A DNA stretch of 39,066 bases from an uncultured Bacteroidales bacterium (lineage in GTDB: Bacteria; Bacteroidota; Bacteroidia; Bacteroidales; UBA932). The notes under the pieces were generated by a model. That model did not search any database and was not told the DNA's origin. It was given only the letters and a program-made list of their open reading frames with translations. The stretch covers positions 1-39,066 of the forward strand of contig CALUQM010000020.1 in the NCBI GenBank assembly GCA_944322925.1, read 5' to 3'. Shown here piece by piece: positions 4,857 to 36,393 of this stretch. How positions within the stretch are numbered: position 1 is the stretch's first letter; every line of letters begins with the position of its first letter. A program made the position numbers and the translations under genes.

Positions 4857-6854
4857 TTATTTCTTGAAAATATAGGCGGCATCCACAGGAGGGACTGAGA
4901 CTGTTTCAGTTACGGACTCTGCGACATATTTACGTATCGGAATTTCAACTGTTTCCAATGAAGGGTTCACGACAATAATGCCATTTTCAAATTCTCTTAC
5001 AAGGACATCCGGATCATTGAAAATACGCAGGCCGGATATTTCAATCTCACCGGTTCCCGTCACTTCAAGTTCCAGAGTATTTTCTCCTCCTGGTAAATTC
5101 CTGAAATAAAAACTTAATTCCCCCGGCTCAGAACAGTCGATCATTCCATAAAGGTCCGTATGGAATTTATCATATTTCGGATCCGATTCGTAAACCGGTA
5201 AATCAACCGGTCTCAATTTGACCAGTCTTGGTATACGGTATTTTTCAGAATAATCTGTCAGAGGCTCCGTTGCCTTCACTTTCAGGAATACTGTAATATC
5301 ACCTTCAGGTAAGACGACATTATTGATATTGAATCTGAAAGATGCGGCATTCCTGTCCGGAGAATCAGGCTTGACATATACTTTCCCGTCATCGAGTCTC
5401 ACGGAAATGCCGGACGTATCAACAGATTCATATAAAATTTCCCCGGCCATATCAATTGCCGCAGGAGCGGTTTTGGCCACCCGTATCAAATCTCCGACAA
5501 TATGCCCCAACGATCCCTGTTTTCTAAACTCTGCAGGAACATACGCTCTGTTCCCCGCACTTGTGACAGCTGCTCCCATACAAAAAGCTGTTGCTGCCGA
5601 GAACTTTCTGATTTCATCTGCCCGAGGCGCATCATTCCCGTTGATTTTCATAACGACATATCTGAATTTATACGGACTTCCAATCCTCTTCATCCAATAA
5701 TCATGTGTATTCAACATCCTGGAAAATCCTCTCCATGAATCAAGAGGTTCAATCAAACCTTCCGATTCAATACCATTCAGCAAATAAGGGGTCTGCTGAT
5801 TCGTCGGCAGTTGGGCATCGCATGTAATGATCCTGTCTTGTCCGAGATATTTCCGGACAAGGCTCAGGAACTTCAAATCGCCATCCATCCAAACATTCCG
5901 GCCATTGATCCAGCCGGCATCTGCAACACCGTCATTGTCCACATCCCATTTCAGTCCCTTCCCGATTCTGTTAAAATAATTGACATCGAAAGCAATACCA
6001 TCCAGCCCGGCAAGAGGGCCGTCTTTGTCAAACCATGTCCGGATTTCATCTGCATAAACTTCATTTGCCATTCTTCCGGAAGAATCTTTGGGACACACCG
6101 ATGACAGATTATAATACCACATTGCATCCTTGCCCCATACGGCAGCAGCTATCGGTGCCATATATGCCTTCCCGCCTTTATATGACAAGGGCTTGCTTCC
6201 ATACAGTCCGCGTTTTAACGAAACAGCGCCGGTTGCTTCATCAAAACCTGTGACTGTCGCATATTCCGACCTGTACCACTGCCTGCGGCCATCCGTATTC
6301 AAAGAAACGATTATCACTTTCAACGGGATATATTCAGGTTCAACCGTATTTCGTTTTATATAGCCTTTATGTTTAAAAGGGACAACATCCTTTACGTATA
6401 CCACATCATCGTTCACGCTGATATCATTTATGACGTCGCTTCCAGCCATATACACCCAGTGCCCCGGGAAATACCTGTCAAGCACGTCTTCATGCTCTGT
6501 GATCTGGCGGCCTTCTCCGTTGAGATGAAGAAGGATCATTTTTTCGGGATTCTGCCGCAAAAATTTCGAGCACCATTCCCGGCTCTTCGTATCAACGTCG
6601 ATTTCTTCCTGCATGAATTTTTTGATAATTATATCGGCGTCGCCTGCCTTATCCAGCCACTCATGATAATCAATCTGCCGAGGCATGACTGTTTCCCCTC
6701 TGAAAGAGACATAAGAAGGAAATGTATTCCGGAAGACTGCTTTCCCGTCCGGAATATCAGAAATTCCAGACATTTTATCCTGACCGCATACGGCAACCAG
6801 GCCAATGCTCAGAAGCAATACACAACAAAAAGTCCTAAGTGCTGACATAACCAT
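4857..6854 (-). CDS. Secreted protein of unrecognised family, possible barrel glycosidase (paralog A)
   Basis: I do not recognise a named family. The 665-residue protein has a signal peptide (about residues 4-24, ending AVCGQ) and should be periplasmic or on the surface. It is clearly homologous to the first 700 residues or so of the gene at 33584-36393. Shared landmarks in the same order are RYFPGHW (127-133), SVCPKD (252-257), LDGIAFDV (284-291), a Ca-loop-like DVDNDGVAD (304-312) and NGIESEGL (360-367), followed by C-terminal beta-rich segments. The DGI-x-FD and ESEG motifs look like acidic strand ends of a (beta/alpha)8 glycoside hydrolase, so Asp285, Asp290, Glu363 and Glu365 are candidate catalytic residues; this is inference. 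Unlike its paralog it has no esterase domain. It is divergent from the HTCS gene. An ATG at 6848 is an alternative start. Confidence 0.85.
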   Translation of the reverse strand: MVMSALRTFCCVLLLSIGLVAVCGQDKMSGISDIPDGKAVFRNTFPSYVSFRGETVMPRQIDYHEWLDKAGDADIIIKKFMQEEIDVDTKSREWCSKFLRQNPEKMILLHLNGEGRQITEHEDVLDRYFPGHWVYMAGSDVINDISVNDDVVYVKDVVPFKHKGYIKRNTVEPEYIPLKVIIVSLNTDGRRQWYRSEYATVTGFDEATGAVSLKRGLYGSKPLSYKGGKAYMAPIAAAVWGKDAMWYYNLSSVCPKDSSGRMANEVYADEIRTWFDKDGPLAGLDGIAFDVNYFNRIGKGLKWDVDNDGVADAGWINGRNVWMDGDLKFLSLVRKYLGQDRIITCDAQLPTNQQTPYLLNGIESEGLIEPLDSWRGFSRMLNTHDYWMKRIGSPYKFRYVVMKINGNDAPRADEIRKFSAATAFCMGAAVTSAGNRAYVPAEFRKQGSLGHIVGDLIRVAKTAPAAIDMAGEILYESVDTSGISVRLDDGKVYVKPDSPDRNAASFRFNINNVVLPEGDITVFLKVKATEPLTDYSEKYRIPRLVKLRPVDLPVYESDPKYDKFHTDLYGMIDCSEPGELSFYFRNLPGGENTLELEVTGTGEIEISGLRIFNDPDVLVREFENGIIVVNPSLETVEIPIRKYVAESVTETVSVPPVDAAYIFKK

Positions 6855-6954
6855 TTATTTTTTTTATAAAGATATACTAAAGCACGATATATGCCTGACT
6901 TCGCCATAACATATAATCGCACAAAAGAAACACGGACAAACAACACAAGGCAAT

Positions 6955-6970
6955 GTTACAAATTTGCAAC
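6955..6970. promoter_or_regulatory. Near-palindrome between divergent genes
   Basis: GTTACAAATTTGCAAC is a 16-bp dyad with one mismatched pair. It lies in the 184-bp gap between paralog A and the HTCS gene. Its position and symmetry fit an operator, but nothing shows which protein would bind. Confidence 0.3.
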
Positions 6971-7010
6971 CCCATGTAGCACGAACGCTATAACAGGTAA
7001 AATATTTTTC

Positions 7011-7018
7011 TTAATTTG
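7011..7018 (+). promoter_or_regulatory. Weak -7-like element before the HTCS gene
   Basis: TTAATTTG matches five of the six defined bases of TAnnTTTG and lies 20 bp before the HTCS start. No -33 element is visible at the expected spacing. Confidence 0.25.
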
Positions 7019-7038
7019 GATGAATAAAACAACTGTAT

Positions 7039-10000
7039 ATGAAAGGACTTTTACGACTCATGTTACTTACGTTTACTATATATTCAGGCACGTCATACAG
7101 TCAGGCACAAAACAATGAAAAAGTTGAAATATATACTGTAAACGACGGACTTTCCCAGCAATCGGTTACCTGCATAACCCAGGATTCCAAGAATTTCCTG
7201 TGGATAGGAACTTTTGACGGGCTCAACAGATTTGACGGCAAGAAATTCGAGACTTTCAGGCATATCAACGGAGACAGTACATCGATAATCAACAACAGGA
7301 TAATCGCATTGGCCAATGACGAGGATGAGGGACTTTGGATACTTTTCGCGAACAACCACATAGGCAAATTTACCGGAAACGGCAAATTCACCAATTACAA
7401 TCTGGGAGGAGACATTTCAGATCTGGGCAATGGCATAAGAAATTTGCAGATATGCGACGGCTATCTGATTGTAACCGGAGAAAAATCAGAAACGATATTT
7501 TTCAATATCGACACCCAAATCACTGATACAGACAGAATCGCCACGCTGAAAAATATTACGCACAACATAGAAAACAAAGGAGAAAGAGTGGTATCACTGG
7601 GCCTTGACGACAATAAAATATGGATATCCGCTACGGACGGGATCTACTGTATAATAGATAAAAATGTACACAAAGTCAGCAGCCTTTCAGGATTCTGTCT
7701 CAATTGCACGGGGAATGGACATATTGCATTATGGAAAGGTGGAGAAGCTGTCATTTATGAAACATTGTATGAAAAAATAGAAAGGCCGCAATTATTTGAA
7801 ATAGCCAGATTCAATGTCGGGTCTGAAATCAATGTCATAGCATCGCCGAACAACAGAGAATTCTACATCGGTTCTTTATCAGGGGTGTATAAATATGTCA
7901 GCAATAAATTATCGTTTTATCCTCCGGCATCCCGTATCCGAACCATATTCTGCGACAATATGGGAATTATCTGGTGTGGGGGAGGCAACGGATTAAGATC
8001 AGTCAATCCCTACTCCAAAGCCATACATAACTTCAAGTTCAGCCGCGAACCTTTTTCTTTCTACAACTATATAAACACATTGAATATCTCTCCGGACAAA
8101 ACACAACTTTATGTAGGATCACGGCATACCGGACTGAATATATTATCCATAAGAAAACTTGAAAACGGACAACTCGAAATAAGAAACAACGAGCGCTTTC
8201 TTCACGGGCAGAACATATCCATGATATATCCTTTCTCAAACGACAGCACATTAATAGGCGCCGATAAATCCCTGTATATGATGACAAGGAACAACGGGAC
8301 AATTTCTTTTGCAACAATCAAGGCAGACCGGTCATGGATACATCCGTTCAAGGCAGCAAAATCAGGCAGTTCGATATATTTCAGCAATGGGCAAACCCTC
8401 AATAAACTGCACAGAAGCCGGTCGGGAAAATTTGTAATTGACAGCCTTCAGGTACTTAACAGCCAGTTGAATCTCACGAGCATAATCACTGTAATCGCGA
8501 AAGACCCGCGTACGAATGTACTGTGGGTCGGTTCGCGAGGAGACGGATTGTTCAGAATCGATCCGGAGAAAAACCGGATAACAAATCTTCATGAAATAAC
8601 GGATGACAGAATAACAAATCCATATATCTGGGATCTGTATTTCGATGCTTCGGACAGATTGTGGATAGGGACTGACGCCGGACTCAATGTATTATATCAG
8701 AATGATTCGACATTCCATCTGCACAGCATATCATCACGAGACGGACTGATAAACGACAAAATCGACACTATACAGGAAGACATGAACGGACAGATATGGA
8801 TGGGGACCAGCCATGGAATCATCTGCTACAACCACGTCAATGGCATATTCAAGACATACGGATATGAAGACGGATTCCAGTCGGACAATTTTACAGGCAC
8901 ATCATGCCATTATGACGATTTCCTGATTTTCGGCGGAGCAAACGGTTTCAGCTGGTTCAATCCGGCTTTGTTCCAAAACTCTACCGTGCCGCCAAGTGTC
9001 AATATAAACAAAATCATTGTCGGGGGAACTGCTCTTTCCGAAGATAAATGGGAAGACATAAGAATAAGGGATTATAAAGATATTTCCATTGAATTATGTT
9101 CCTATTACTCCCCCAATCCCCTCAAGGTAAAATACAGATACCAGATCAATGGGTCGGGCTGGAATGAAACATCCGACAATATTCTCAGGTTCAACAATCT
9201 GAGGCCCGGGAAATATACCGTGCTTTGCAAAGCATTCATCAATGCTGATGTTGAAAGCCGGGAACTGACTGTCAGGTTCAAGATACTGAGACCATTATTT
9301 GCTTCCATATCAGCAATTTGCATTTACAGTATTTTGGCATGTATATGCATTTTTATGATTATAAAAACAATTACGACAAGAAAACTCCTGTCAGACAAAC
9401 TGAAAGCAGAAGAAACACTGCGTTTGAACGAGCGCGAGCTATCAAAGGAAAAATTGAACTTCTACACAAACATGGCCCATGAAATCAAGACGCCGTTGAC
9501 ATTGATTCTCGGAAGGACAAATGACATAGAAAATTGTGACGAAGCATCGCCGGATATTGTAAGAAAGGCCAGACTGATAAATGACAATGCCCTGATCATA
9601 AATCAGCTTACAGACCAGATTCTGGAATTCAAACGTGCAGTTTCCGGAAAACTTACGTTAGATATAAATGACACAGACATAATGCCGAGCATTAACAACA
9701 TCATAGACAACTACCGGGATTATGCCAATAAGCGCGGGATAACTATTGAGCTTGAAAGTTCGTCGGACATTCTGACAAAACCCATAGATATCCAAAAATT
9801 CATACGGATTCTATACAACCTCATTTCCAATGCAATAAAATTTTCTGAAAGAGGCGGTAGAATCCTTGTAAAAATAACGGAAAAGAATGACGAACTTATA
9901 CTTGTCGTCAGCGATACCGGATGCGGAATATCAGAAACCGACCTGCCTCATATATTCGAGCGTTTTTATAAATCGGACAAATCCGGAGGATTCGGAATCG

Positions 10001-10968
10001 GGCTTGCATTTACGAAATCTCTGGTAGAACTTATGGGAGGAGACATTACAGTCACAAGCAGACTCGGAGAAGGGTCAACGTTCATGGTAAGAATTCCGGA
10101 CCAGTCTGGCGCGAAAAAAGAACGCATAAAGCCGGACAGCCATACACCGGACAAAGAACGGAAAGCAATATATTCTCCTTCAATCCTGGTCGTAGAAGAC
10201 GATATTGAACTTAATTCATATATCAGCGAAATTCTATGCATAAAATTCAAGGTCTACCAGACCTATAATGTCAAGGAAGCAATGCATACACTAAGGAATA
10301 AAGATATAGACATGATCCTGAGTGATATTATGATGCCCGGGACAGACGGGATTGAATTCGCCAGGCGGATTAAGGGCATTAAGGCATTCGCACATATTCC
10401 AATCATTTTCCTGTCGGCAAAATCCGATCAGTTCGACCAACTCGACGGTCTTGCTGCAGGAGCCGTAGACTATATCGTAAAACCGTTCAATCCCAATATA
10501 CTGTTGCTGAAAATCCAGAACATATTGGCACAATACTATCTGAGCAAAGAAAAATTCAGGGAAGCGGACCTTCCTGCAACGGAATACACGGACAAGACAT
10601 ACGGAGTCAACAGAGACGAGATGCTGATAAACAAGGCCAGGGAAATTATTTACAAAAACCTGTCAAATGAAAACTTCAGCGTCAGTAGACTCAGTACGGA
10701 ACTTGGAATAAGCAGAGTACATCTTACAAGGGAGTTCCAGCGCATTATAAATACATCTCCTTCAATATTCATAAAAAAAATCAGGCTTAATTATGCAAGA
10801 CACATGCTTCAGTCCGGGAATGTATCGATCAAGGAAGTTCTGTTCGAAATAGGCATAAGATCACACAGCGGTTTCACAAAAGCATTCAAGGAAGAATTCG
10901 GACATCTTCCGAGTCAGATGCCGGCAGATGCCGACGACAGGACCGCAAACGACAATTGTGACAAATAA
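7039..10968 (+). CDS. Hybrid two-component system sensor-regulator (HTCS)
   Basis: A one-protein glycan sensor and transcription activator of 1309 residues. After a signal peptide (to about residue 24) comes a periplasmic double-propeller region with repeats such as FLWIGTFDGLNRFDG, RLWIGTDAGLNVLY and QIWMGTSHGIICYN. A Y_Y_Y-type beta domain and a membrane segment (about 755-778) follow. The cytoplasmic part has a HisKA box NMAHEIKTPLTLILG with His814, an HATPase (NLISNAIKFS, DTGCGI, GFGIGLAF), a receiver domain with phospho-acceptor Asp1096 in LSDIMMPG and the KPF lysine, and a C-terminal AraC-type DNA-binding domain (about 1195-1300). All catalytic boxes look intact. It lies 34 bp before the GH2 gene, so the regulator may be cotranscribed with enzymes it controls. 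Its ligand is probably an oligosaccharide of the target glycan. Confidence 0.97.
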   Translation: MKGLLRLMLLTFTIYSGTSYSQAQNNEKVEIYTVNDGLSQQSVTCITQDSKNFLWIGTFDGLNRFDGKKFETFRHINGDSTSIINNRIIALANDEDEGLWILFANNHIGKFTGNGKFTNYNLGGDISDLGNGIRNLQICDGYLIVTGEKSETIFFNIDTQITDTDRIATLKNITHNIENKGERVVSLGLDDNKIWISATDGIYCIIDKNVHKVSSLSGFCLNCTGNGHIALWKGGEAVIYETLYEKIERPQLFEIARFNVGSEINVIASPNNREFYIGSLSGVYKYVSNKLSFYPPASRIRTIFCDNMGIIWCGGGNGLRSVNPYSKAIHNFKFSREPFSFYNYINTLNISPDKTQLYVGSRHTGLNILSIRKLENGQLEIRNNERFLHGQNISMIYPFSNDSTLIGADKSLYMMTRNNGTISFATIKADRSWIHPFKAAKSGSSIYFSNGQTLNKLHRSRSGKFVIDSLQVLNSQLNLTSIITVIAKDPRTNVLWVGSRGDGLFRIDPEKNRITNLHEITDDRITNPYIWDLYFDASDRLWIGTDAGLNVLYQNDSTFHLHSISSRDGLINDKIDTIQEDMNGQIWMGTSHGIICYNHVNGIFKTYGYEDGFQSDNFTGTSCHYDDFLIFGGANGFSWFNPALFQNSTVPPSVNINKIIVGGTALSEDKWEDIRIRDYKDISIELCSYYSPNPLKVKYRYQINGSGWNETSDNILRFNNLRPGKYTVLCKAFINADVESRELTVRFKILRPLFASISAICIYSILACICIFMIIKTITTRKLLSDKLKAEETLRLNERELSKEKLNFYTNMAHEIKTPLTLILGRTNDIENCDEASPDIVRKARLINDNALIINQLTDQILEFKRAVSGKLTLDINDTDIMPSINNIIDNYRDYANKRGITIELESSSDILTKPIDIQKFIRILYNLISNAIKFSERGGRILVKITEKNDELILVVSDTGCGISETDLPHIFERFYKSDKSGGFGIGLAFTKSLVELMGGDITVTSRLGEGSTFMVRIPDQSGAKKERIKPDSHTPDKERKAIYSPSILVVEDDIELNSYISEILCIKFKVYQTYNVKEAMHTLRNKDIDMILSDIMMPGTDGIEFARRIKGIKAFAHIPIIFLSAKSDQFDQLDGLAAGAVDYIVKPFNPNILLLKIQNILAQYYLSKEKFREADLPATEYTDKTYGVNRDEMLINKAREIIYKNLSNENFSVSRLSTELGISRVHLTREFQRIINTSPSIFIKKIRLNYARHMLQSGNVSIKEVLFEIGIRSHSGFTKAFKEEFGHLPSQMPADADDRTANDNCDK

Positions 10969-11002
10969 TATCTTGAAAAAATAACCTTTTATACAATCTG
11001 AC

Positions 11003-13417
11003 ATGAAAACCATCAAAATTCTATGCCTCCTATATTGTATTTTCGTGCTGTCATCTTTTGCAGTCTCATCCCGCGAAGTCATCGACATTAATACCGGATG
11101 GCACATATTCAATCCATATCGGCCCTGGACAGAAAGAGCATCGCATCCCGGAGATGAAAAAGCCGGCAAAGGGAAACCGGTCGACCTGCCTCATGATTTC
11201 AGCATAGAAGGACCTTTCAGAAAAGAAAATCCTTCCGGCCAGGCAGGAGGCTATCTTCCAGGCGGTAAAGCATTATACAGAAAAGACGATGTTTTTATAA
11301 AAAAGGAATGGAAAGGACAGAAAATATTTATCGCATTCGAAGGTATTTATCAAAACAGTACCGTATACGTAAACGGGATCAAGGCAGGGTTCAGGCCCAA
11401 CGGATGGGTCCCGATAACTTATGAGATATCGAAATGGCTGAAGTTCGGAGAAAACAATATGATCGCTGTCCTGGTCGACAATACACAGATACCGAACTGC
11501 AGGTGGTATTCGGGATCAGGCATCTACAGGCCGGTACGTCTCATAATCAAAGACAATCTCAATATTGACAACGATGGAATATTTGTCACGACTCCGGTTA
11601 TCAATGAAGATTTTGCGATTATAAGATCGAAAACAGCCGTGAAAAACGAATACGACATCCCCCAAAGATTCAACATTATTCAGGAAATCATCGACAGTAA
11701 AGGAATGACAGTGGCCGCAGACACCTCTGATTTCTATCTTCCGCGAAATCATAGCAAAGAATTCGAACAGAATACCGTAGTATGGAAGCCCGATATCTGG
11801 GATATCGATAACCCTGACTTGTATACATTGAAAACCAGTATATGCCAAAATGGGGAAACAATAGATGAAACCGCTACCGTATTCGGGATAAGGAGTATTG
11901 AATTTACCGCTGACAAAGGTTTTTACCTCAACGGGAAAAGACTGAAGCTAAAAGGTGTCTGTCTGCATCATGACGGAGGAATGACAGGTGCGGCTGTCCC
12001 GCCCGGCATCTGGGAAAGACGATTGAAAATTCTTAAAGACATGGGATGCAATGCCGTAAGAACCAGTCATAATCCATTTGATCCTGCATTTTATGACATT
12101 TGCGACAAAATGGGATTCCTTGTCATGGATGAATTTTTTGACGAATGGACAACCTGCAAACTGGAAACAGTACCATACGGCTCTCACATATATTGGGATG
12201 AATGGCATAAGAAAGACTTGACGGATCTTGTAAAAAGGGACAGGAACCATCCGTCCGTAATACTGTGGAGTGTCGGTAACGAAATCTCTGAGCAGGCTTA
12301 TCCCGAAGGGTATAAAATAGCAAGGGAGCTCGTCGACCTGATATACTCTCTGGATAATACCAGACCGGTTACGTGCGGGAACAACAAGCAGATTGAAGCC
12401 AATCTGACCGGGTTTGCGGATGAATTCGATATTGCAGGCTATAATTATGGCCCTCAATTCGGCAATTACGAGCGGGACCGCGCAAAATATCCATTCAGAA
12501 AATTTATCGGGACAGAAAGCACACGAGGCAAATCCAATCGCGGAGTATATGTCTTCCCTGTATCTGAAAACGGGAAGATGGCCATATCGGAAGATAACTA
12601 CTACTCTTCCTACGATGGAAAATTCCGTATATACGGACAAGAAAAAGAATGGGAAATAACAGAAAATTATGATTATATTTCAGGAATGTTTATCTGGACC
12701 GGCATAGATTATATCGGAGAAACATCTTTCCCGTTCCCGACGAAATATTCAGATTTCGGCGTTCTGGACGTTTGCGGATTTCCCAAAGACGCATATTATT
12801 TTTACAGAAGCGTCTGGAATGAAAAAGATATCACACTCCATATTCTCCCCCACTGGAACTGGCCGGACAGAAAAGGAGAAAAAACACCTGTATGGTGTTA
12901 TACGAACTGCGATGAAGTAGAGTTGTTCCTTAACGGAAAATCCCAGGGCATCCGGAAGTCCGGAGACAACGGCATGCTTCATTTGGAATGGAATGATGTA
13001 CTTTACGAAGCAGGCGAATTGAAAGCTGTCGGATATGTCAACGGGAAAAAAGTCAAGGAAACCACAGTCGCGACTACCGGAAAAGCGACTGAAATTCATC
13101 TTGAGGCAGACAAGCCGCGACTTGAATCAGATGGTGCAGATGTCGTACACATTACGGTAAGTACACTTGACAGCAACGGACGATTTGTCCCCGATGCACA
13201 AAATGCTCTCGACTATCATGTTGAAGGAGGTAAACTGTTAGGTATAGACAATGGAGACCCGCAATATGTCGGCAATTACAAACATACTGAAGGGAGGACT
13301 CTGTTCAACGGACTCAGCCTGATTATAATACAGTCAGATCCGGACGATCCGTTCATTGAAGTTACGGTAACGGGAGACAACCTGAAAACCGGGAAAATCA
13401 AAATAAAAATAAATTGA
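11003..13417 (+). CDS. Glycoside hydrolase family 2, beta-galactosidase-like
   Basis: A secreted 804-residue retaining exo-glycosidase. After the signal peptide come the jelly-roll sugar-binding domain (about 30-190, with RWYSGSGIYRPV), an Ig-like domain, and the catalytic barrel (about 305-600). The barrel has acid/base Glu427 in WSVGNEIS and nucleophile Glu505 in IGTESTRG. C-terminal beta domains of the DUF4982 and GH2-C5 type follow, beginning near VWCYTNCDEVELFLNGKSQG. This architecture is common among PUL-encoded beta-galactosidases, though other beta-linked sugars are possible. It is encoded 34 bp after the HTCS and 2 bp before the phosphoesterase, so all three are probably one transcript. 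It would remove non-reducing beta-galactosyl ends from imported oligosaccharides in the periplasm. Confidence 0.93.
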   Translation: MKTIKILCLLYCIFVLSSFAVSSREVIDINTGWHIFNPYRPWTERASHPGDEKAGKGKPVDLPHDFSIEGPFRKENPSGQAGGYLPGGKALYRKDDVFIKKEWKGQKIFIAFEGIYQNSTVYVNGIKAGFRPNGWVPITYEISKWLKFGENNMIAVLVDNTQIPNCRWYSGSGIYRPVRLIIKDNLNIDNDGIFVTTPVINEDFAIIRSKTAVKNEYDIPQRFNIIQEIIDSKGMTVAADTSDFYLPRNHSKEFEQNTVVWKPDIWDIDNPDLYTLKTSICQNGETIDETATVFGIRSIEFTADKGFYLNGKRLKLKGVCLHHDGGMTGAAVPPGIWERRLKILKDMGCNAVRTSHNPFDPAFYDICDKMGFLVMDEFFDEWTTCKLETVPYGSHIYWDEWHKKDLTDLVKRDRNHPSVILWSVGNEISEQAYPEGYKIARELVDLIYSLDNTRPVTCGNNKQIEANLTGFADEFDIAGYNYGPQFGNYERDRAKYPFRKFIGTESTRGKSNRGVYVFPVSENGKMAISEDNYYSSYDGKFRIYGQEKEWEITENYDYISGMFIWTGIDYIGETSFPFPTKYSDFGVLDVCGFPKDAYYFYRSVWNEKDITLHILPHWNWPDRKGEKTPVWCYTNCDEVELFLNGKSQGIRKSGDNGMLHLEWNDVLYEAGELKAVGYVNGKKVKETTVATTGKATEIHLEADKPRLESDGADVVHITVSTLDSNGRFVPDAQNALDYHVEGGKLLGIDNGDPQYVGNYKHTEGRTLFNGLSLIIIQSDPDDPFIEVTVTGDNLKTGKIKIKIN

Positions 13418-13419
13418 CA

Positions 13420-14301: not shown

Positions 14302-14316
14302 CATCCACCTTTTCGG

Positions 14317-15894: not shown

Positions 15895-15920
15895 TTCACT
15901 TAAATTTCTGAACAAATTTG

Positions 15921-26400: not shown

Positions 26401-26621
26401 TGAGATTTGTCGGATACTGAAATCGTAAAATTCCCATCGATATCAGTCGCAGTTCCATTTTTTGTTCCTTTTTCCAATACGGATACGCCTATAAGAGGAT
26501 TACCGCTCTCATCATAGACTGTTCCTGACATGGAAATCCGTTTCTGAGCGAATGAAACTGTTGAAAAACAGATCAGAAACAGTAAAATTCCAATTCGGTT
26601 AAAGACAGGTTCCCTTAACAT
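23475..26621 (-). CDS. susC: SusC/RagA-family TonB-dependent outer-membrane transporter
   Basis: A 1048-residue TonB-dependent receptor that imports glycan fragments across the outer membrane. After the signal peptide (ending VSFAQ) comes a carboxypeptidase-D-like beta-sandwich (GTVYDESGNPLIGVSVLEKG, about 33-115). Next are a TonB-box-like DEVQVIGYA and the plug domain with EDALRGQLAGVSI, IRIRGTNSIN, SPLYVVDGVL and the SusC signature STAIYGSRGANGVVIITTKK. A long beta-barrel follows and ends in an aromatic C-terminal strand (YSAGISVTF). It is first in the operon with SusD and the FnIII lipoprotein. The best -7 candidate is TAATTTTA on the minus strand (plus 26661-26668), one base off consensus. 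It is divergent from the GH36-like gene. Confidence 0.97.
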   Translation of the reverse strand: MLREPVFNRIGILLFLICFSTVSFAQKRISMSGTVYDESGNPLIGVSVLEKGTKNGTATDIDGNFTISVSDKSHPIIFSYIGFLDLEIEPVSESGMRIVMEEDSELLDEVQVIGYAVIKKSDLTGSVASVKADVMEDRMVLSVEDALRGQLAGVSILSTDGAPGASMNIRIRGTNSINASNSPLYVVDGVLMESTDISPSEIESMEILKDASSTAIYGSRGANGVVIITTKKGRAGAPRINFSATVSMQQPVRLYEMMNAEEFARYCVWGAGRAGGDSRDYYDMEGYVWNLSYASTYSDRYQEILNGDFTTDTNWQKEVLKNALIEEYRLSISGGDQKGTYSVIGSILDQDGIVLNTGMERYNVRANFDREVTPWLKIGVNASGSSMSMKNTTGNIIKSMLSRPPTKAIYQEDEIDITDDNTLINQDPVSQAMKITNNQNRLNATFKGWADIYFAKIFRLNISGSYNYTRTKTERYYPSDVQTGSGNVVGGKAQSYVSENINWLNENLLYITPEPFGIHTFDALVGVTLQGTNIYNLNTEANNFPYEDKGVYNMEMGLTPIPTINKYTKSALLSFLARANYKIKDRYLFTASIRADGSSRLAKGNKWGYFPSGAIAWRASEEPFIKRLNLFSELKFRASAGVSGNTGISPYQTLALMSTSGYPMDGLNPSLGFVASRTRNPDLRWETTTQYDAGIDVGLWNNRLLMTVDVYLKKTKDLLLLESVPDYIGYQTRWTNRGKVSNKGLELSLSGYPISTKNFTWSSTFNISFNRSNVEYIAESGWMVLSSSAGGASDFGLLQEGKPIGLWYGYKDDGVYTSMSEIENSGITSIFGSTTTRPGYIKYEDYNNDHQINESDRQIIGYAEPKFQGGFVNTFTYRNIDLQIGLEFKYGGTVFNSTRMSLEGGKGANINQTKRAAKYGLYQTLYMKDTGELYFQGNEDIAYIGGPLSFSEPQNFYCRSLYVEDASYLRINDITLSYTLPAKFTQKIFIRNMKFFVSVKNAYVFTNYSGFDPDVNSVSSSGADLLPGLDDCAYPRTRNYSAGISVTF

Positions 26622-26802: not shown

Positions 26803-26818
26803 TTTCAATTTTAATCAC

Positions 26819-29368
26819 ATGATTATGAACAAGTACCTTTTCATCATTATTCTGTGCTTTTCATGTCTGTCATCATGCACATCGGAAACCGTACGATACA
26901 ATGAGACGTACGCACAGTGGAACAGACACGAACTGACAGTATCTACCGGGAATTTTACAAGAGTATGGAATATCGACAGGCACGGCCTCGTTTCAAAAAA
27001 AATCATTGATGATGAATCGGGATACAATTGGAGCAATGGCAACAGACAGAATACATGCGACTGGGATTACTGTGGATTGATCGACAACTCGACAGAAGGA
27101 AAACTGGTATCTGTCCATGCTTCGCATTCGAATGATTCATCATTCACGTCGGATCATCTCGCAGTTTTCGTCGAATACGAATATCCGAAAATAGAAACAC
27201 GAATATTATATGAAATAAGGGCGTACCCTGAAACTGCAGGCTTGTATACGAACCTGTATATTAAAGGTTCTCCCCATAAGCATATCGACAAAAATGCGAT
27301 GGATTCAGACGATATCCGATTCGACATGTTGTCAGGAGAGAATACTTTTAATTATAAGGCCAATGCTTTCGTCCCTGAATACATAGCCCGACATGCATGT
27401 TCAGATAATGACATAGAATATAGAATCAGCGGCCTGAATGCTTTAAAAAAATATAAGATCGGAGTATCATGGTGGAATTCCGACAGTACATCCATCGTAC
27501 AAAATCTGGTTCTGTACAACCCTGAAAAAGATAATGGAATCAGATTGCTTGAAGCCCATGAAATTCCTTCGTGCCATATAAACAACGAGCCTGAAGAATT
27601 TACTTTCGACGTACCTGAAGGGTCGTACAAAGACGGAGAAATTCATCTTGTGATTGAAAAGGTGTCCGGCAAGGCCACAGTATCTGAAATATGGGTATAT
27701 GAATATGGCGGACAGACAAAAGAACTTATCGGCGATCCGGAAAGATTATCCGATCTGAGAGAGTCCGCAGGAGACGGGACTTACAGTCTTGCAGGATATC
27801 TGAATTGCGGCAATTCAAATAAAAGCACTGCCAATGGCACAGGCAGGATCGATTATTTTCCGATAGATACGGAGGGCGCGACGCGTCACTATATCGGTTA
27901 TTACAACGATACCCAGCACAGAAACCGTAAAGAAACACCGTTGCTAAAAGAATGTATAATGTCAGAAAACATAGCCGGCACAGAACAGAATGCCTGGGCC
28001 AGCATATTGAGCATCGGAAAAGATGGCAATTCCTTGACAATTGTCAAGGAATCTCATAAATGCGTTAACCAGCACGGTCATGATACCGGATCCTTTATTG
28101 TTACGGAAACCGGGATATCAAATACAGGGACAGCCATGATGCCGGAAGAAGTATTGCCTGACAGATACAGGAAAGCCTGGGCCACATGGATAATTTCAAG
28201 CAGTAATGATGAACTTTCCAAAGGACTTGCCTTAAAAAAATTCGAACGCATGAGATATCCGGTCGATCATGATACGGATGTATACTTGATTGCCAATGCC
28301 TGGGGAAGCGGACGAGGAGCAAATGCGACCCTGGAATCGAACATAATCGAAGAATTAAAAGTCCAGAATTACCTCGGCATTGATGTTCAGCAAATCGATG
28401 ACGGATATTTCTACGCAGGGACCAGACGTCCCTCAAATCTCAATATCCCATATCGCGCACATGAAAGCAAATATCCAAGTGGTTTTGAAAATGTACGTGA
28501 CATTGCTGCCGGGTACGGAATCCGTCTTGGACTCTGGTTCCCTGCCATGCCGGTATCGCTGGCGGATATGAAGCATAACTATGATGAAGGAAATTTCAAA
28601 TACTACAAACTGGATTTCGCAGATTTCCGTAATTACGCGCAAATGGAAAATATGATACGGAAAATCCGCACTTTCGAACAATATGCAGGGCATACGGCCA
28701 AAGTAAACTGGGACGTAACTGAAAGTGCTGCAAGATTCGGCTATTTCTGGGCTAAAGAATACGGAGCGGTTTTCCTTGAAAACCGACGTCACGACAAGCC
28801 GCTTAATGTCATATATGAACCGTACCTTGTATTGCGGGACTTGTGGCATCTGTCAAAATACTGCAATCTGAATAAGTTTCAGGGAACCATTCAGAATAAG
28901 GAAACGGTCTCTGCCGATCTGAGTGACGCTTACAGATATTCTCATGCATATACTGTGGGAATTGCCTTGATGTCAACTCCTTTGTTTTTTCAGGAAACCA
29001 AATTTTACTCAAATAAAGCATTGTCTGAAATAAAGACAGTGATCGATGCCTATAAACCAATCCGGCACTCTTTATATGACTGTTATGTTTTTCCTGTCGG
29101 AGAAGAGCCGGACAATGCATCATGGTCCGGTTTCCAGGCCATTTCCCCTGACGGCAACAGCGGATTTATGACTGTTTTCAGAGAAATCAACAATAATAAT
29201 CCGTCTTATAATATGGCCATTTACAATAACGGCAGCAAAAAGATGAAAATCAAAGACCTGATTTCAGGAAAAACAGAAATAATCGATATCAGCAAGGCAA
29301 ATGAAATAACAGTTTTCATCCCGAAACCAGGTGAATTCAGATTCCTTTCATACGAATATGTAAATTAA
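26819..29368 (+). CDS. GH36-like (clan GH-D) alpha-galactosidase-type lipoprotein
   Basis: An 849-residue lipoprotein (signal ending LSSC, Cys20). The N-terminal beta-supersandwich (about 30-190 and 300-450) is interrupted around residues 195-298 by an apparent extra beta-sandwich (NALKKYKIGVSWWNSD to EIWVYEYGG) that looks like a carbohydrate-binding insert. The catalytic barrel (about 470-750) has the expected nucleophile Asp599 in YYKLDFADF. The acid/base region reads WDVTESAARFGYF, where classical GH36 enzymes have an Asp after the R-aromatic pair; a Gly is there instead, so Asp632 or Glu635 may take the role. It may therefore belong to a divergent subfamily with altered specificity. It is first in a tight operon with GH3 (7 bp) and GH127 (16 bp). 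An ATG at 26825 is an alternative start. Confidence 0.85.
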   Translation: MIMNKYLFIIILCFSCLSSCTSETVRYNETYAQWNRHELTVSTGNFTRVWNIDRHGLVSKKIIDDESGYNWSNGNRQNTCDWDYCGLIDNSTEGKLVSVHASHSNDSSFTSDHLAVFVEYEYPKIETRILYEIRAYPETAGLYTNLYIKGSPHKHIDKNAMDSDDIRFDMLSGENTFNYKANAFVPEYIARHACSDNDIEYRISGLNALKKYKIGVSWWNSDSTSIVQNLVLYNPEKDNGIRLLEAHEIPSCHINNEPEEFTFDVPEGSYKDGEIHLVIEKVSGKATVSEIWVYEYGGQTKELIGDPERLSDLRESAGDGTYSLAGYLNCGNSNKSTANGTGRIDYFPIDTEGATRHYIGYYNDTQHRNRKETPLLKECIMSENIAGTEQNAWASILSIGKDGNSLTIVKESHKCVNQHGHDTGSFIVTETGISNTGTAMMPEEVLPDRYRKAWATWIISSSNDELSKGLALKKFERMRYPVDHDTDVYLIANAWGSGRGANATLESNIIEELKVQNYLGIDVQQIDDGYFYAGTRRPSNLNIPYRAHESKYPSGFENVRDIAAGYGIRLGLWFPAMPVSLADMKHNYDEGNFKYYKLDFADFRNYAQMENMIRKIRTFEQYAGHTAKVNWDVTESAARFGYFWAKEYGAVFLENRRHDKPLNVIYEPYLVLRDLWHLSKYCNLNKFQGTIQNKETVSADLSDAYRYSHAYTVGIALMSTPLFFQETKFYSNKALSEIKTVIDAYKPIRHSLYDCYVFPVGEEPDNASWSGFQAISPDGNSGFMTVFREINNNNPSYNMAIYNNGSKKMKIKDLISGKTEIIDISKANEITVFIPKPGEFRFLSYEYVN

Positions 29369-29375
29369 ATCATAT

Positions 29376-31583
29376 ATGAAAACCTTATGTTTCATGTCGA
29401 TAATATTGATGTCGTTCAATATTGTCAACACCCATGGGACCGACATCAGTGATGATAATGCTGAATACAAAGCTATTGCAAACTCAGACAGCACTGTAGG
29501 CCGGGCCATATATGCCGACACGGCTGCATCGCCTGCTGAACGGGCTTATGACCTCATACGTCGCATGACATTGGAGGAAAAGATTTCAATGACAGGCGGA
29601 TGGAACAAATTTATGATACCGGGTATTCCCCGGCTGGGCGTCAGAGGTGTATCTATGGCCGATGCTTCTCAAGGGATCAGGCTTCAGACTGCATACATCA
29701 AGGATAAAAGTACATCTTTCCCCTGTATGCTGGCTCTTGCTTCAACATGGAATCCGCATCTTGTATATGACATGGCGAAATGTCTTTCCAAAGAATGCCG
29801 ATCCCATGGTGTCGATATATTGTTGGGACCTGGAATGAATATGCAGCGGCTCTCTGTCGGCGGACGTAATTTTGAATATATGGGAGAAGATCCGTATCTG
29901 ACATCCGAAATATCATTTGCGTATTTAAAGAGTTTTCATGACAACAATGTGATTGCCGTAGCCAAACACTTCATTTGCAATGACCAGGAATTTTGCCGGC
30001 ATATAGCGAACAGCATTGTCGGAGAGAGGGCATTTCGTGAAATCTATTTTTATCCCTGGGAAAAGGCAATCGAAAAAGGCGTATGTCACGCAATAATGAC
30101 AGGGAACAATATGGCAGGAGGAATTCCCTGTTGCATGAACAAAACTCTTCTGACAGATCTCCTTCGGACGGAACTCGGTTTTGACGGAACCATAATGACC
30201 GACTGGCAGAATTCTTCCTATTTTCCGGAAAGACAAAATCTGGTCCTGCATTCGGGAATAAATCTGCTGATGCCTGACAATAATACTTTCAGACAGTATA
30301 TCGATGATGAAATACGCAAGTCTGAGTCCCGGAAAAATGAGGTGGAAATCATGCTCGAACATATGATTTACCCGACGATCCGGACTTTGTTCAAGGCTGG
30401 AGTTTATGACAGGCCGTTTGCTTCATCTATAACCGACGATGACATGGAGTTCCATAAACATATAGCAGAAAAATGTGCACTGGAAGCTCCTGTACTTTTG
30501 AAAAACGACAACATACTGCCACTGCGCCCGGGTCAGAAAATTCTACTTGCGGGTCCTTGTGAAATTCATAGCGGAACAGGAAGCGGATACGTTGAAGGAT
30601 ATGACCATGTCAACTATCTTGACGGGCTGATGTCAATCTACGGGGATAATGTGAAATATGAACGATTCCCTGATCATTCCTCACTGAACGATGCTGACGT
30701 TATAATATATTTATTGAGTAAAGATGCGGGGGAAAGCAAGGATATTCCGTTTGAAGAACCTGTGGATCAAATAGACGATATTCGGAAGATAGCCGCTGTC
30801 AACGACAACGTCATTGTCCTTGTCAATGCGTGCAACACTTTTCCTTCAGACTGGATAAACGACGTAAAAGGCTTGGTCTGGTGCTATTTCCTCGGCCAGG
30901 AACGGGGTGATGCGCTTGCGAAATTATTGTCGGGTGAAGAAAATTTTTCAGGAAAACTGCCATTTACCGTCGAGCGCAGCTTTTCCGAATCTCCGGCACC
31001 TGATTTCAATCGTCTCGGGAATAAGCCGTATTGGGGAGGAGACAGCAAAGTCTACAAAAAATATTGGATGGGAACTTCCGCCAAAAAGATACCCGGATTT
31101 TCGGAATATGTAAAACCTGGACAAAACGTAGATATAGACTATTCCGAGGGGATATTTACAGGATACCGCTGGTATGACAGACACGATATCGATGTCGTTT
31201 ACCCTTTCGGATACGGTCTTTCATATACGTCCTTTTCTTACAATAATATCGTATGTGAAAACAAAATGGAATCCGAAGGCCTGATAAGCGTAAGTATAGA
31301 TGTCAAAAACACCGGAAGTTGTATCGGGAAGGAGACAGTCCAGATTTATGTTGAAGATTGCGAGTCCGATGTAGAACGCCCTGTAAAAGAACTTAAAGCC
31401 TTCAAAAAAATTACAATTGCACCGGGCGAAACCGTCACTGTGAATTTCAGCCTGGACAGGAAAAGTTTTTCCTACTGGGATGAAATCAATCATGAATGGG
31501 TGCTTGAACCCGGCAGATTTGTTATCCATGCCGGAAAATCCAGCGGAGAACTGCTGTTGCGAACAGAAATAATCTTAAATTAA
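29376..31583 (+). CDS. Glycoside hydrolase family 3
   Basis: A 735-residue secreted retaining exo-glycosidase of the beta-glucosidase, beta-xylosidase or alpha-arabinosidase type. After the signal peptide (about residues 1-21) the (beta/alpha)8 domain shows RRMTLEEKISMTGG, LLGPGMNMQR, GGRNFEYMGEDPYL, VAKHFICNDQE and GERAFREIYFYPWE. The catalytic nucleophile is Asp276 in IMTDWQNS. The alpha/beta sandwich domain follows (LLAGPCEIHSGTGSGYVEGY), and then the C-terminal FnIII-like domain with YPFGYGLSYTSF and RPVKELKAFKKI. No key element appears missing. The substrate is not predictable from sequence. It sits between GH36-like and GH127 genes with very short spacers, so the three are coexpressed and probably act on the same oligosaccharide. 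Confidence 0.94.
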   Translation: MKTLCFMSIILMSFNIVNTHGTDISDDNAEYKAIANSDSTVGRAIYADTAASPAERAYDLIRRMTLEEKISMTGGWNKFMIPGIPRLGVRGVSMADASQGIRLQTAYIKDKSTSFPCMLALASTWNPHLVYDMAKCLSKECRSHGVDILLGPGMNMQRLSVGGRNFEYMGEDPYLTSEISFAYLKSFHDNNVIAVAKHFICNDQEFCRHIANSIVGERAFREIYFYPWEKAIEKGVCHAIMTGNNMAGGIPCCMNKTLLTDLLRTELGFDGTIMTDWQNSSYFPERQNLVLHSGINLLMPDNNTFRQYIDDEIRKSESRKNEVEIMLEHMIYPTIRTLFKAGVYDRPFASSITDDDMEFHKHIAEKCALEAPVLLKNDNILPLRPGQKILLAGPCEIHSGTGSGYVEGYDHVNYLDGLMSIYGDNVKYERFPDHSSLNDADVIIYLLSKDAGESKDIPFEEPVDQIDDIRKIAAVNDNVIVLVNACNTFPSDWINDVKGLVWCYFLGQERGDALAKLLSGEENFSGKLPFTVERSFSESPAPDFNRLGNKPYWGGDSKVYKKYWMGTSAKKIPGFSEYVKPGQNVDIDYSEGIFTGYRWYDRHDIDVVYPFGYGLSYTSFSYNNIVCENKMESEGLISVSIDVKNTGSCIGKETVQIYVEDCESDVERPVKELKAFKKITIAPGETVTVNFSLDRKSFSYWDEINHEWVLEPGRFVIHAGKSSGELLLRTEIILN

Positions 31584-31599
31584 TTCAAATCTGCTTGAT

Positions 31600-33552
31600 A
31601 TGAAGTCAGATCTGCTTAAAAAAACGATTGGGATACTTGTTGCACTTGTCAGTCTTGCAGCATCGGCCTCGGGACAGGAAAATCATTATGTTTATACGGA
31701 CGGACTGATGAAAGACACGTCTGCGAAAGGCTGGATCAAAGAATTCCTGAACAGGCAGAAAAGCGGCATGACCGGGAATCCCGATGCATTGTCATATCCA
31801 TACAACACCTGCCTTTGGGACGGCGAAATAGCCAGGAACAGGAATTACGGCAGAGACTGGTGGAGGTATGAACAGACTGCATACTATACCGACGGACTGT
31901 TAAGATTGGGATATATACTCGACGACAGAGAACTTGTCGACAAAGGCGAAGCCGGAATCATATATACATTGAAAAACAAAGAAAGCAACGGAAGATTGGC
32001 CCACGGCAGTTTCTCACATGCTACTATGTGGCCCATGTGCATATTTTTCAGGGCAATACAAGCATATTACGATGAAAATAATGACAGTGGAATTCCGGAA
32101 GCTCTCGAAAAACATTATTTGAGCTACAGTATGGAGGATTTGCAGAACTGGCGGAATATCGTCAGTCTGGAAGGAATGCTGTGGACATACGGACTTACCC
32201 GCAACAAGGAACTGCTTGACAGGTCTGTAAGCGCCTGGAATAATGGAAAATTCGGCGATCTCACTCCAAAGGCATGCGCCGGAGACACTATACCGAAAAT
32301 GCATGGCGTAACGTTCTGTGAAGAATTGAAACTGCCCGTATTATTATACGCCCATACCGGCGACAAGCGATATCTGGAACTTGCAAAACATGCTTACGAC
32401 AACATGGAACGAGACTATATGCTTCCTGACGGTGTAAATACAAGCGCCGAACATCTTTTGAAAAATGATAATATAATCATCAGTCATGAAACTTGCGACA
32501 TTGCTGACTTATCATGGACTTTAGGTTATTTCCTAATGGCTACAGGAGATGCCGGATGGGCGGACAAAATTGAAAGAATTGTATTTAATGCCGCACCTGG
32601 AGCTGTTACAAAGGACTTCAGATCATTGCAATATTTCTCATCCGTGAATCAGGTAATCGCTACCGGCTACTCAAACCACAATGAATATTTCCATGGCAGT
32701 ACATGGATGGCATACAGACCCATACATCAGACAGAGTGCTGCTCGGGCAATGTCCATCGGATAATGCCGAATTATGTTTCCAGAATGTGGATGAAAGATA
32801 AGAAAGGAAAAATTGCAGCGACATTATACGGGCCGTCGGAAATAGAACTTGAGCTGGGTGACGGTTCAACGTGCAGAATAGAAGAGGTCACTTCTTATCC
32901 GTTTGATAATGAAATAAATTTTATTTTTCATCCGGAAAAAAGGTCAAGGATACCTTTTACATTCAGGATTCCCGGATGGAGCAGGCATACAGAGATATCA
33001 ATCAACGGGAAGAAAATGAAAAACAGCCCTGAAAGCGGATCTTTTTTCACTTTGGACCGCATCTTCAAAGACGGGGATACCGTAAAGGTGAATTTTTGCA
33101 TGGAGCCTGAGGTGGTACATATCGAGAATCAGGGTGCTTATATACAAATGGGACCTGTAGTATATTCATATCCTGTACCTCAGAAAGTCAAGGAAGACAC
33201 CACGCAATATGAAAATATGTTCGGCAAGTCCGCAGACAATGAAAATTTCAAGTGCTGGGAAATTTCACCTGACGGAAGCTGGAACTACGCATTGTACAAA
33301 CCGTCAATTTCAGATTTTGAAATACAGATTTCCGATCCGGACAAATATCCTTTTGACGATGACGGCGTGAACATGAAAATCAAGGTTCCCGTAAAAAAGA
33401 TAGACTGGACTCTTGAAGACAATAAGTTTACGCCTGAATTACCTGAGCCGGACAAAATAAAAGTGCTGCATGACAATGTGGAATATATCGATCTCGTTCC
33501 TTACGGAAGCACGGAATTGAGAATAACCGTATTTCCAGTATTGAATCAATAG
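31600..33552 (+). CDS. DUF1680 / GH127-family glycosidase (copy 1)
   Basis: A 650-residue secreted (alpha/alpha)6-barrel enzyme; the signal peptide ends ASASGQE. The zinc-site residues known from GH127 beta-L-arabinofuranosidase are recognisable: Glu297 and Cys299 in HETCDIADLSW, and Cys380-Cys381 in ECCSGNVHRIMPNY, the second pair supplying the thiol nucleophile in characterised members. Known activities in this superfamily include beta-L-arabinofuranosidase and, in carrageenan loci, removal of 3,6-anhydro-D-galactose; either would fit here. The C-terminus carries beta domains ending VPYGSTELRITVFP. It is last in the GH36-GH3-GH127 operon and convergent (31 bp) with the disrupted esterase fusion. 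A paralog is at 36411-38435. Confidence 0.9.
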   Translation: MKSDLLKKTIGILVALVSLAASASGQENHYVYTDGLMKDTSAKGWIKEFLNRQKSGMTGNPDALSYPYNTCLWDGEIARNRNYGRDWWRYEQTAYYTDGLLRLGYILDDRELVDKGEAGIIYTLKNKESNGRLAHGSFSHATMWPMCIFFRAIQAYYDENNDSGIPEALEKHYLSYSMEDLQNWRNIVSLEGMLWTYGLTRNKELLDRSVSAWNNGKFGDLTPKACAGDTIPKMHGVTFCEELKLPVLLYAHTGDKRYLELAKHAYDNMERDYMLPDGVNTSAEHLLKNDNIIISHETCDIADLSWTLGYFLMATGDAGWADKIERIVFNAAPGAVTKDFRSLQYFSSVNQVIATGYSNHNEYFHGSTWMAYRPIHQTECCSGNVHRIMPNYVSRMWMKDKKGKIAATLYGPSEIELELGDGSTCRIEEVTSYPFDNEINFIFHPEKRSRIPFTFRIPGWSRHTEISINGKKMKNSPESGSFFTLDRIFKDGDTVKVNFCMEPEVVHIENQGAYIQMGPVVYSYPVPQKVKEDTTQYENMFGKSADNENFKCWEISPDGSWNYALYKPSISDFEIQISDPDKYPFDDDGVNMKIKVPVKKIDWTLEDNKFTPELPEPDKIKVLHDNVEYIDLVPYGSTELRITVFPVLNQ

Positions 33553-33583
33553 CTTTCCTTCAACTCGCTACATCTTATTGGCT

Positions 33584-36393
33584 TTAATCATGCCTTTTCC
33601 TGTGGCTGAATATCCATTCCAGAAAATCAGGCTCCTCGAATGCTTTACTCCAGCAATTATGAGGTACTCCTTCATACAAAGTATAACGGAATTCCACGTT
33701 TTCCGCTTTCAGTTCAGCTATGATTCTTTCATCATTTTCCGGCAGGACAATAGTATCGGAAAGACCATGGAAAATCCATACGGGAACCTTTCCCGCCCAC
33801 AAATCCACCAACGACATGTCAGCACCTCCACCCATTGGAGAGGCGGCTGCAAAAAGTTCCGGATACTGTGCAATAAAATGATATGTTGAATAGGCCCCCA
33901 TCGACGAACCTGCGACATATACCCTTTCAGGATCTACCTTGCCTGCAGCAATCATATCCTTTATCAGACCGATGACCATGTTGCCGTATTTCGACATCAC
34001 GGTCGTTGTTCCGGCCATGGACGGATTGTCGGAGTCTTCACTTCTACGAAAGTCTCCGGTGTCTGGGGATACAGGACATAACACGGATACTTGATCCTGT
34101 TAAGACTGTCCAAAAATACAGATGCACCTATCGACAACTGTTTTTCATTGTCCGTTCCCCTCAAACCCATTCCATGCAAATATACGAAAAGCGGATATTT
34201 AACGTTTCGATCAATATCAGCCGGAGACAAAAGCCTGTACGGCATTTCCGTGCCGGTCCCGTCCGTCACGGTGCAATATTCATACATATCAAGGCCCTGC
34301 GCCCGGGGAACCACGGACACTAAAAACATCGCATCAGCGGGGGCTACCGTAATTTTTCCACGGACTTGTGAACCGTCGTTCAATTGAGATCTGCCTTTTA
34401 TCCTTCTGAACACGGAATCAGGACATATCCTGTCCAGATCAAACGTATATTCATTCAATGACGGATTTACGAGGACAAGCCCGTTTTCATATTCCCGGTA
34501 AAAAGCGCCCGAAGATGCCAGGATTCTAAAATCCTTCAGCCGGAATGCCCCCTGTCCCTCGACCTCTATCTCAAAAGACAAATCCTTACCGGCAACATTC
34601 CTGTATAAAAACGTCTGTTCCACATATCCTTTACAGTCGAACAGCCCCCACATATCATTATACATGTCATTGTTCTGCTTATTATCTTCGTATTGGGGAA
34701 GCCCCTCGGCAGTGACTCTGACGATTCTCGGAAAATCTGAAGAAAGCCCGGCCAGTCCCTCATCAGCCATTACAGAAAAAGAAACCACAATGTCATTGAC
34801 TCCATCCGGGACCCGAAAAACCGGAGTACGTAAAAGACAGTTCAAATCGTATCTTTCCGGATTCTTTCCTTTTACCATAAGGACACTGTCCTTTGCTTCC
34901 ATGGTACTGTTTTCAGTCGAAAACCCGGCAATAACTGCATCGGCCGTTCCGAAGCGGTTTGACAGTATGTCCGAAGCATGAGCGTCAGCATATATTATCC
35001 CGGAGACAGGAGAACCCAGCCAGTGCAGTTTGCCTTCGTCTCCGCATCTCAGTTCGTCCGACAGACTTTCCTCTGATTTTACAGGCGATATGTTCAATGC
35101 GGCATCAAGACAAGTGGCGACTGCAGTACATAGTCTTGTGTATTGCTCCTTACGAAGCATGTCGACAGGGTTATTGACCTTAGGGACAAAGGTCATCAGC
35201 TTATATTTCATCGGATTTCGGGAATTCCAGTATGAAAACACGTTCATTGTCTTCGAAAAGCCTCTGAAAGCATCATTATGCTTGACAAGACCTTCCGATT
35301 CTATTCCGTTGAACAGCCCCATCGCCCGTTGGTCCTTGAAATTATAACCGTCATTAATCAGGATAAAATCTTCCCCGAAATGAGCACGGAGCCTCTTCTG
35401 GAAATCAACCGCCCCTTTTCGCCACAGATTTTCTCCGGTATAAGGATCTGTCGCCCCGTCAGCAAGACCGTCGGAATCGGAGTCAATCAAAAAACTGTTT
35501 ACAATCGGCGGATTCCAGTTAAGTACATCGAAAGAAATCCCGTCAAGGTTACGCAACAGGCCTTTATCCTTATCAAATAATGAAACCAGTTCATCCAGTT
35601 GCACATCTATGGCATTATGCCCGTTTCTGTCCCTCGGGCAAGATGTCGAATAATTGAACATGAACAGATGCTCCGAACTCAGGTATGTGAGAATCTGCGC
35701 GACTCTGCTGCCTTCAGCAAATGCCATGGGTGTAGATAAAGCCTGTCCTCTGCGGACCGTAATCGATGATTCCGATTCATTCACATTGTCTACGGCAACA
35801 TACTCATAATGTTCCCAGTCAGGCTTTCCATTCTTGTCCAAAGCGACAAGCAACAGCATCGGATATTCCCATTTTGACCTTGCCTTTTTGTTTTTCGTCA
35901 GTTTGGAAAAATATTCTATATCGGCCACGAATATCTCGCGGTCGTACGGTGAACAATCTCTTGTCAGCGATGATGCCCTCAAAGTCGCCCAATGCCCGGG
36001 AAAATATTTCGATGCGGATTCTTCCATGATGTTTACATGCTCTTCCGCATCCCAGTGCAACAGGACAAGTTTTTCAGGATTTTCGGTCACATACCTGGAC
36101 GCAAAGCCAGCAGTCAGGACCGGATCTATTCTCGGCAGTTCGTCATACGGTACGTATTTCTGAATAAATCCGGCTCCGTCTGCGCCCGATCTGACAAAAT
36201 TCCCGTATGAAGAATTTGCTTCCTTGTCATATTCTCCCCTGAAGACAAAAAATTCAGGGTATCTGCCATTAAAAACTTCTTTCCGGAACAAACCGTCGTC
36301 CGGGGCATCCGCATTTAAAGCTTTCTGACCGGGAACAAGTGTCAGGAACAAAAATATTGCGGCAAGGTTGGATATGCGACCAAACGTTTTCAT
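33584..36393 (-). pseudogene. Unknown-family secreted protein (paralog B) fused to esterase, frameshifted
   Basis: The first frame (36393 to 33997) encodes a signal peptide and a protein homologous to the gene at 4857-6854, with SKYFPGHW, SCPRD, LDGISFDV (283-290), DSDSDGLAD (304-312) and NGIESEGL (362-369) in nearly the same spacing. From about residue 703 an alpha/beta-hydrolase domain begins (YPLFVYLHGMGLRG, CYVLYPQTPE), but the frame runs into a stop at 33997. The rest of that hydrolase continues in another frame down to 33584, with nucleophile motif GSSMG, HGLSDTIVLPENDE and PHNCW. Restoring one base near 34015-34020 (around the TGGCC) would give a single protein of about 935 residues. 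The domain resembles PHB-depolymerase or feruloyl-esterase-like enzymes. No slippery heptamer or homopolymer is visible at the break, so mutation or assembly error is likelier than programmed shifting. It follows the DUF1680 gene by 17 bp. Confidence 0.85.

Follow-up and report, generated by a model that had tools for sequence, protein, structure and literature searches.

What do the two large secreted proteins encoded near the ends of a sulfatase-rich polysaccharide utilization locus (PUL) of an uncultured Bacteroidales bacterium do, and to which enzymes are they related? The stretch of DNA analysed here (the window) comprises 39,066 nucleotides, the whole of positions 1 to 39,066 of contig CALUQM010000020.1 (assembly GCA_944322925.1), and the proteins, called protein 1 and protein 2 below, belong to a family that neither Pfam nor NCBIfam names. 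With a probability of about 0.68, we read them as secreted retaining glycoside hydrolases (GHs) of an unnamed family that shares a common ancestor with GH168, the sulfated-fucan endo-alpha-fucanases, within a wider GHL15-type group, and that likely cuts a sulfated polysaccharide from within.

The two proteins exhibit a similarity far beyond chance, with 194 of 654 alignment columns identical (30%) over nearly the whole length (BLASTP, 271 bits, E 9e-85). The original prediction had described a secreted paralogous pair with shared ordered motifs at the two ends of the locus, and most of this holds. Both proteins have signal-peptide-like starts, as judged by eye, and the motifs recur in the same order at nearly identical positions in proteins 1 and 2, respectively: FPGHW at residues 129 and 131, CP at 254 and 252, LDGI at 284 and 283, DG(V/L)AD of a calcium-type loop at 308 in both, and NGIESEGL at 360 and 362. 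The extent of protein 2, however, had to be redrawn, as 33584-36393 is not one reading frame. Its homology to protein 1 covers the first ~660 residues and is followed by a C-terminal extension that begins an alpha/beta-hydrolase domain (esterase-type matches); the frame switches within the overlap 33997-34084, and the rest of the hydrolase domain is therefore a second open reading frame (ORF). A sequencing error and gene decay would leave the same split. Both family genes lie on the minus strand and bracket most of the PUL, although one GH127-type gene lies beyond protein 2. In a 20-row tree of residues 40-469, protein 1 clusters with members from other genomes (L036, L049 and L057; support 0.987) and protein 2 is placed outside this group, so that by this phylogeny the two would be an old pair.

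In line with the unrecognised family of the original prediction, Pfam and NCBIfam give no match for either protein; 20 aligned family members yield chance-level matches only in both databases, and five distant members none in Pfam. No published account of the family was found in searches of the open-licence PMC literature. The family is also rare in the sets searched: protein 1 was matched in 2 of 101 close genomes, its own counted, and among 393 genomes sampled from the order in one, again its own, and protein 2 gave, its own genome aside, matches to the esterase extension only among 395 genomes of the phylum. A scan of genome contigs with a 3-row profile, which relied on two short peptide patterns, led to seven loci in records titled Bacteroidia, Alistipes (three loci in two metagenome-assembled genomes, MAGs), Bacteroidales, Verrucomicrobia, and Spirochaetes. 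In the phylum of the Verrucomicrobia-titled MAG, a 9-row profile (A2) found matches in 16 of the 387 genomes sampled, with at most two candidates scored per genome; in two of the 16 (G886 and G1075), the match is to the C-terminal part only. No relative was found by tblastn against plasmids or in a scan of IMG/VR.

The predicted structure points to kinship with GH168. The AlphaFold2 (AF2) model of protein 1 (pLDDT 80.6, pTM 0.82; an earlier model from a 3-row alignment was poor, with pLDDT 40.6) has a (beta/alpha)8 barrel, in which conserved acids lie at strand ends, and a calcium-type loop between strands 5 and 6, in line with the fold originally proposed. A signal-peptide-like start, the barrel, a sandwich resembling a carbohydrate-binding module (CBM) and C-terminal strands follow one another along the chain. 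GH168 is the closest fold in a structural comparison, and the barrel with C-terminal antiparallel beta-strands that typifies GH168 is also what is predicted for protein 1; the strand order is identical in GHL15 (PF14885). Matches below GH168, including GH13 and GH66 enzymes, were treated as common-barrel matches, and absence of a family from the fold list carries no evidential weight.

Unlike GH168, the family has three additions to this scaffold. The beta-rich stretch after strand 3, which contains FPGHW and an RGxxGSxP motif, spans about 130 residues versus roughly 40 in MeGH168 by a count made by eye. The only echo of this stretch among sequences of the Protein Data Bank (PDB) is a phage tail-tip J-like protein at E 1.4, which is therefore likely due to chance. 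In the loop past strand 5, Asp304, Asp308, and Asp312 occur in all 20 members and Asp306 in 17, a motif suggestive of calcium binding. The CBM-like sandwich, in contrast to CBM6/CBM22-type modules and the BiXyn10A CBM1, is not terminal but sits inside the GH168-like chain, before the C-terminal strands.

Profile comparison points in the same direction. GH168 has Fun168A/FunA, FWf5, MeGH168, PbFucA, and 9f9v as named members; the GH168 set used here (A6, 23 rows) consists of MeGH168 (sequence from PMC12210190) and 22 of 30 loci matched with it, L091-L098 being left out as short matches. On the family side, alignment A3 has 20 rows, and A7 is A3 minus the partial L037, L059, and L061 plus L051, L064, and L065; L063, L066, and L067 never entered an alignment. 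The profile-profile comparison (hhalign) of the family with the GH168 set gave E 9.3e-6 and Prob 82.9. Three segments were also compared separately, since a single alignment is upset by the insertions. Residues 38-125 aligned with GH168 columns 56-82 (score 24.5; best shuffle 22.0), residues 236-470 with columns 171-222 (50.2; 21.0), and residues 600-665 with columns 327-352 (21.4; 19.5), in correct order and each outscoring 100 of 100 column-shuffled profiles.

At the putative active site, the original prediction had proposed a cluster of Asp285, Asp290, Glu363, and Glu365. Asp290 and Glu365 are invariant in the 20 aligned members and Glu363 is conserved in 19, but the Asp285 column has Asp in only 17, with Glu, Gln, and Asn once each; the putative catalytic pair would be better given as Asp290 and Glu365 than as four acids. 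Protein 2 retains this pair as Asp289 (35527-35529) and Glu367 (35293-35295). In MeGH168, Asp167 is the predicted nucleophile and Glu237 the predicted acid/base. Glu365 is aligned with Glu237 by hhalign, in a column with Glu in 21 and Asp in 2 of the 23 GH168 rows, and Asp290 is matched with Asp167 by motif (DGI-x-FD versus DGIFMD) and strand order rather than by hhalign. The FunA variants D206E and E264Q are reported to be inactive (PMC7401878). For FWf5, E81, K82, Y115, N117, D194, N234, and E254 are listed as conserved, with D196 and E254 named as the catalytic counterparts (PMC10778895). By motif and position, the FWf5 set compares with Lys79, His110, Asn112, Asp290, Asp346, and Glu365 of protein 1. 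The family and GH168 have in common Asp on strand 5, Glu on strand 7, Lys on strand 2, and Asn on strand 3, along with similar LR/TR-x-x-x-G-x-D-x-I/L-I and REF/REY-type motifs. They differ in that the Tyr-x-Asn on strand 3 and the Asn on strand 6 of GH168 are not found as such: on strand 3, the family has His110 in 18/20 and Asn112 in 17/20 versus Tyr in 23/23 and Asn in 21/23, and the Asp346 column has Asp in 20/20 versus Asn in 23/23.

The setting, like that of GH168, is one of sulfated-polysaccharide use. By gene content, the window reads as a PUL of the sulfated-glycan type, as originally proposed, with sulfatases, glycosidases, SusC/D proteins, and a metallophosphoesterase identified by Pfam; the coordinates are collected below.

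Features of the window, with positions on the forward strand and the basis of each assignment
Feature	Position	Strand	Basis
Family protein 1, 665 aa	4857..6854	(-)	ORF and translation
CBM-like beta-sandwich, residues 462-614	5013..5471	(-)	
Glu365 codon, end of barrel strand 7, proposed acid/base	5760..5762	(-)	20/20 invariant; hhalign
Asp346 codon, directly past strand 6	5817..5819	(-)	hhalign pairing with MeGH168 Asn213
DxDxDGxxD calcium-type loop, residues 304-312, between strands 5 and 6	5919..5945	(-)	Motif
Asp290 codon, end of barrel strand 5, proposed nucleophile	5985..5987	(-)	20/20 invariant; model strand 286-289
Beta-rich stretch, residues 112-240, between strands 3 and 4	6135..6521	(-)	AF2 secondary structure
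Hybrid two-component regulator	7039..10968	(+)	Reg_prop, Y_Y_Y, HisKA, HATPase_c, Response_reg, HTH_18
GH2-type protein	11003..13417	(+)	PF02836, PF02837, PF00703
Sulfatase	14317-15915	(-)	PF00884
Sulfatase	16241-17731	(+)	PF00884
Sulfatase	17744-19339	(+)	PF00884
Protein with Pur_ac_phosph_N (Fn3-like) match	19329-21419	(-)	Pfam
SusD-like protein	21434-23434	(-)	Pfam
SusC-like protein	23475-26621	(-)	Pfam
Weakly Melibiase-like protein	26819-29368	(+)	Pfam, below cut-off
GH3 protein	29376-31583	(+)	Pfam
GH127-type protein	31600-33552	(+)	Pfam
Rest of alpha/beta-hydrolase (esterase-like, Peptidase_S9/DLH-like) domain	33584..34084	(-)	PF00326 E 7.1e-12, PF01738 E 4.4e-9
Family protein 2, 798 aa	33997..36393	(-)	BLASTP E 9e-85 to protein 1
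Second GH127-type protein, past family protein 2	36411..38435	(-)	Pfam

Relatives occupy comparable surroundings. At least one sulfatase is found at all six scanned Bacteroidota loci (window 3, L036 2, L037 2, L039 1, L040 3, L042 1; the counts cover part of the neighbours). In two Alistipes-titled MAGs, L040 5674-17218 and L042 4057-17239 have gene content and order in common, namely GH36, FAD oxidoreductase, family protein, sulfatase, GH43, and FAD oxidoreductase, with one extra unscanned ORF ahead of the family gene in L042. The two sulfatases at L036 are accompanied by a GLAA-B gene, which we take to be GH110-type.

Taken together, these features would lead one to think of a catalytic barrel centred on Asp290 and Glu365, with Lys79, His110, Asn112, and Asp346 beside the pair by analogy with GH168. 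What the analysis shows is the pair, its rarity in the sets searched, the invariant residues, the sulfatases nearby, and a predicted fold linked to GH168 by profile; hydrolysis, its retaining character, endo action, a sulfated substrate, and the sugar itself are inferences. The proteins would most likely cleave a sulfated polysaccharide, probably from within, and the products would then be handled by the sulfatases, the GH2, GH3, and GH127-type enzymes, and the SusC/D proteins of the locus. The bond attacked is perhaps that of an alpha-linked L-galacto-configured sugar, as in GH168. L-Fucose is 6-deoxy-L-galactose, and for this reason L-galactose specificity was considered, although this is a guess as to the sugar.

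Could the proteins instead simply be divergent GH168 enzymes that cut sulfated fucan? GH168 being the closest fold, the profile homology, and the sulfatases of the locus would all accommodate this, but direct sequence comparison speaks against it. CAZy assigns a protein to a family when its sequence is significantly similar to that of a characterised member, and the link found here runs through profile-profile comparison only. In the PDB sequence set, where 10 distinct sequences are of GH168 type, phmmer with protein 1 gave no GH168 match at E ≤ 10 (one match at E 0.95), profile A2 gave none, profile A3 gave one at E 1.4 that is not GH168, and searches with L065 and L064, two distant members, produced chance matches only, or none. 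MeGH168, in contrast, matches 9f9v (Planctomycetota strain 892) at E 2e-76 and PF14885 at E 8e-62, whereas PF14885 is above the Pfam cut-off in none of the window proteins, the 20 A3 members, the five distant members, or the proteins of the window's own genome. The substituted Tyr and Asn positions add to this, and neither GH29 nor GH95 is matched in the own genome, which speaks against fucan as the substrate. A divergent fucanase is therefore unlikely in our view. By the tests run, the family is not a member of GH168, although it seems to work in the same way. We regard it as a sister of GH168 that probably hydrolyses, with retention, a sulfated glycan different from fucan. The original claim that it cannot be placed in any CAZy family stands insofar as no characterised family is matched pairwise among PDB sequences; with a relative found by structure and profile, however, the family is not unplaceable. 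Going further, one might tentatively propose, at somewhat less than even odds, a new CAZy-level sister family that cleaves the backbone of an L-galactose-rich sulfated polysaccharide, or of one rich in another non-fucose sugar, in bacteria with record titles indicative of gut and water samples. Such a family could have arisen from a GH168-type barrel that gained the internal CBM, the calcium loop, and the beta-rich stretch, with one window copy additionally gaining an esterase-type domain.

Several observations weigh against kinship with GH168 as the explanation. Foldseek TM-scores are modest (0.3 by query, about 0.5 by target), with CBMs and an isomalto-dextranase among the first rows. The hhalign result with an 11-row profile (A4) was only Prob 19.7 and E 0.0012; upstream of strand 6, local alignments of the full-length sequences are not in register, and a short-segment alignment of residues 236-300 left Asp290 unaligned. 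Most of the profile link comes from a single stretch of 48 columns (strands 6-7), the two remaining segments being only narrowly above the best shuffle, and the site residues differ on strand 3 (His for Tyr) and strand 6 (Asp for Asn). One rival reading is a glycosidase closer to another TIM-barrel group, such as GH13, GH66, GH27, GH114, or an unsearched CAZy family, with the GH168 match reflecting the shared barrel only; a CAZy family that lacks a solved structure, e.g., GH187, might be the true home. GH13 and GH66, however, score below GH168 structurally and have no Pfam match in the family. GH114 (PF03537) likewise has none in the window proteins, the 20 A3 members, or the five distant members; hhalign against a 9-row GH114 set also gave nothing, a weak result since rows L107, L111, and L113 used a frame other than the listed one. 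We consider this explanation quite improbable. Still more doubtful is a non-catalytic glycan-binding protein with a retained barrel: we know of no assay of any family member, and protein 1 carries a CBM-like domain, but the acidic pair is kept in 20/20 aligned members, of several phyla by record title, and in both window copies. Further points against an enzyme of sulfated non-fucan glycans are that no sulfatase occurs among five scanned neighbours at L038 or five at L041, and that the search for fucosidases was confined to two families, in a genome that is 94% complete.

There are few enzymes able to open sulfated polysaccharides, and each family added can make a further polymer accessible. 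For the protein that Pfam and NCBIfam leave unnamed, there are now a candidate catalytic pair, a closest relative among characterised families, and a class of substrate that can be tested, with members known from Bacteroidota, the phylum of the Verrucomicrobia-titled MAG, and a Spirochaetes-titled MAG.

A third copy in the own genome is a 99-residue N-terminal fragment (G000:C23:35859-36143, L003) that adjoins a beta-helix-like protein resembling GH110 by eye. At L037 10004-11742, in an Alistipes-titled MAG, a member is broken over two frames, and at L036 4961-9256, two family genes lie adjacent in divergent orientation.

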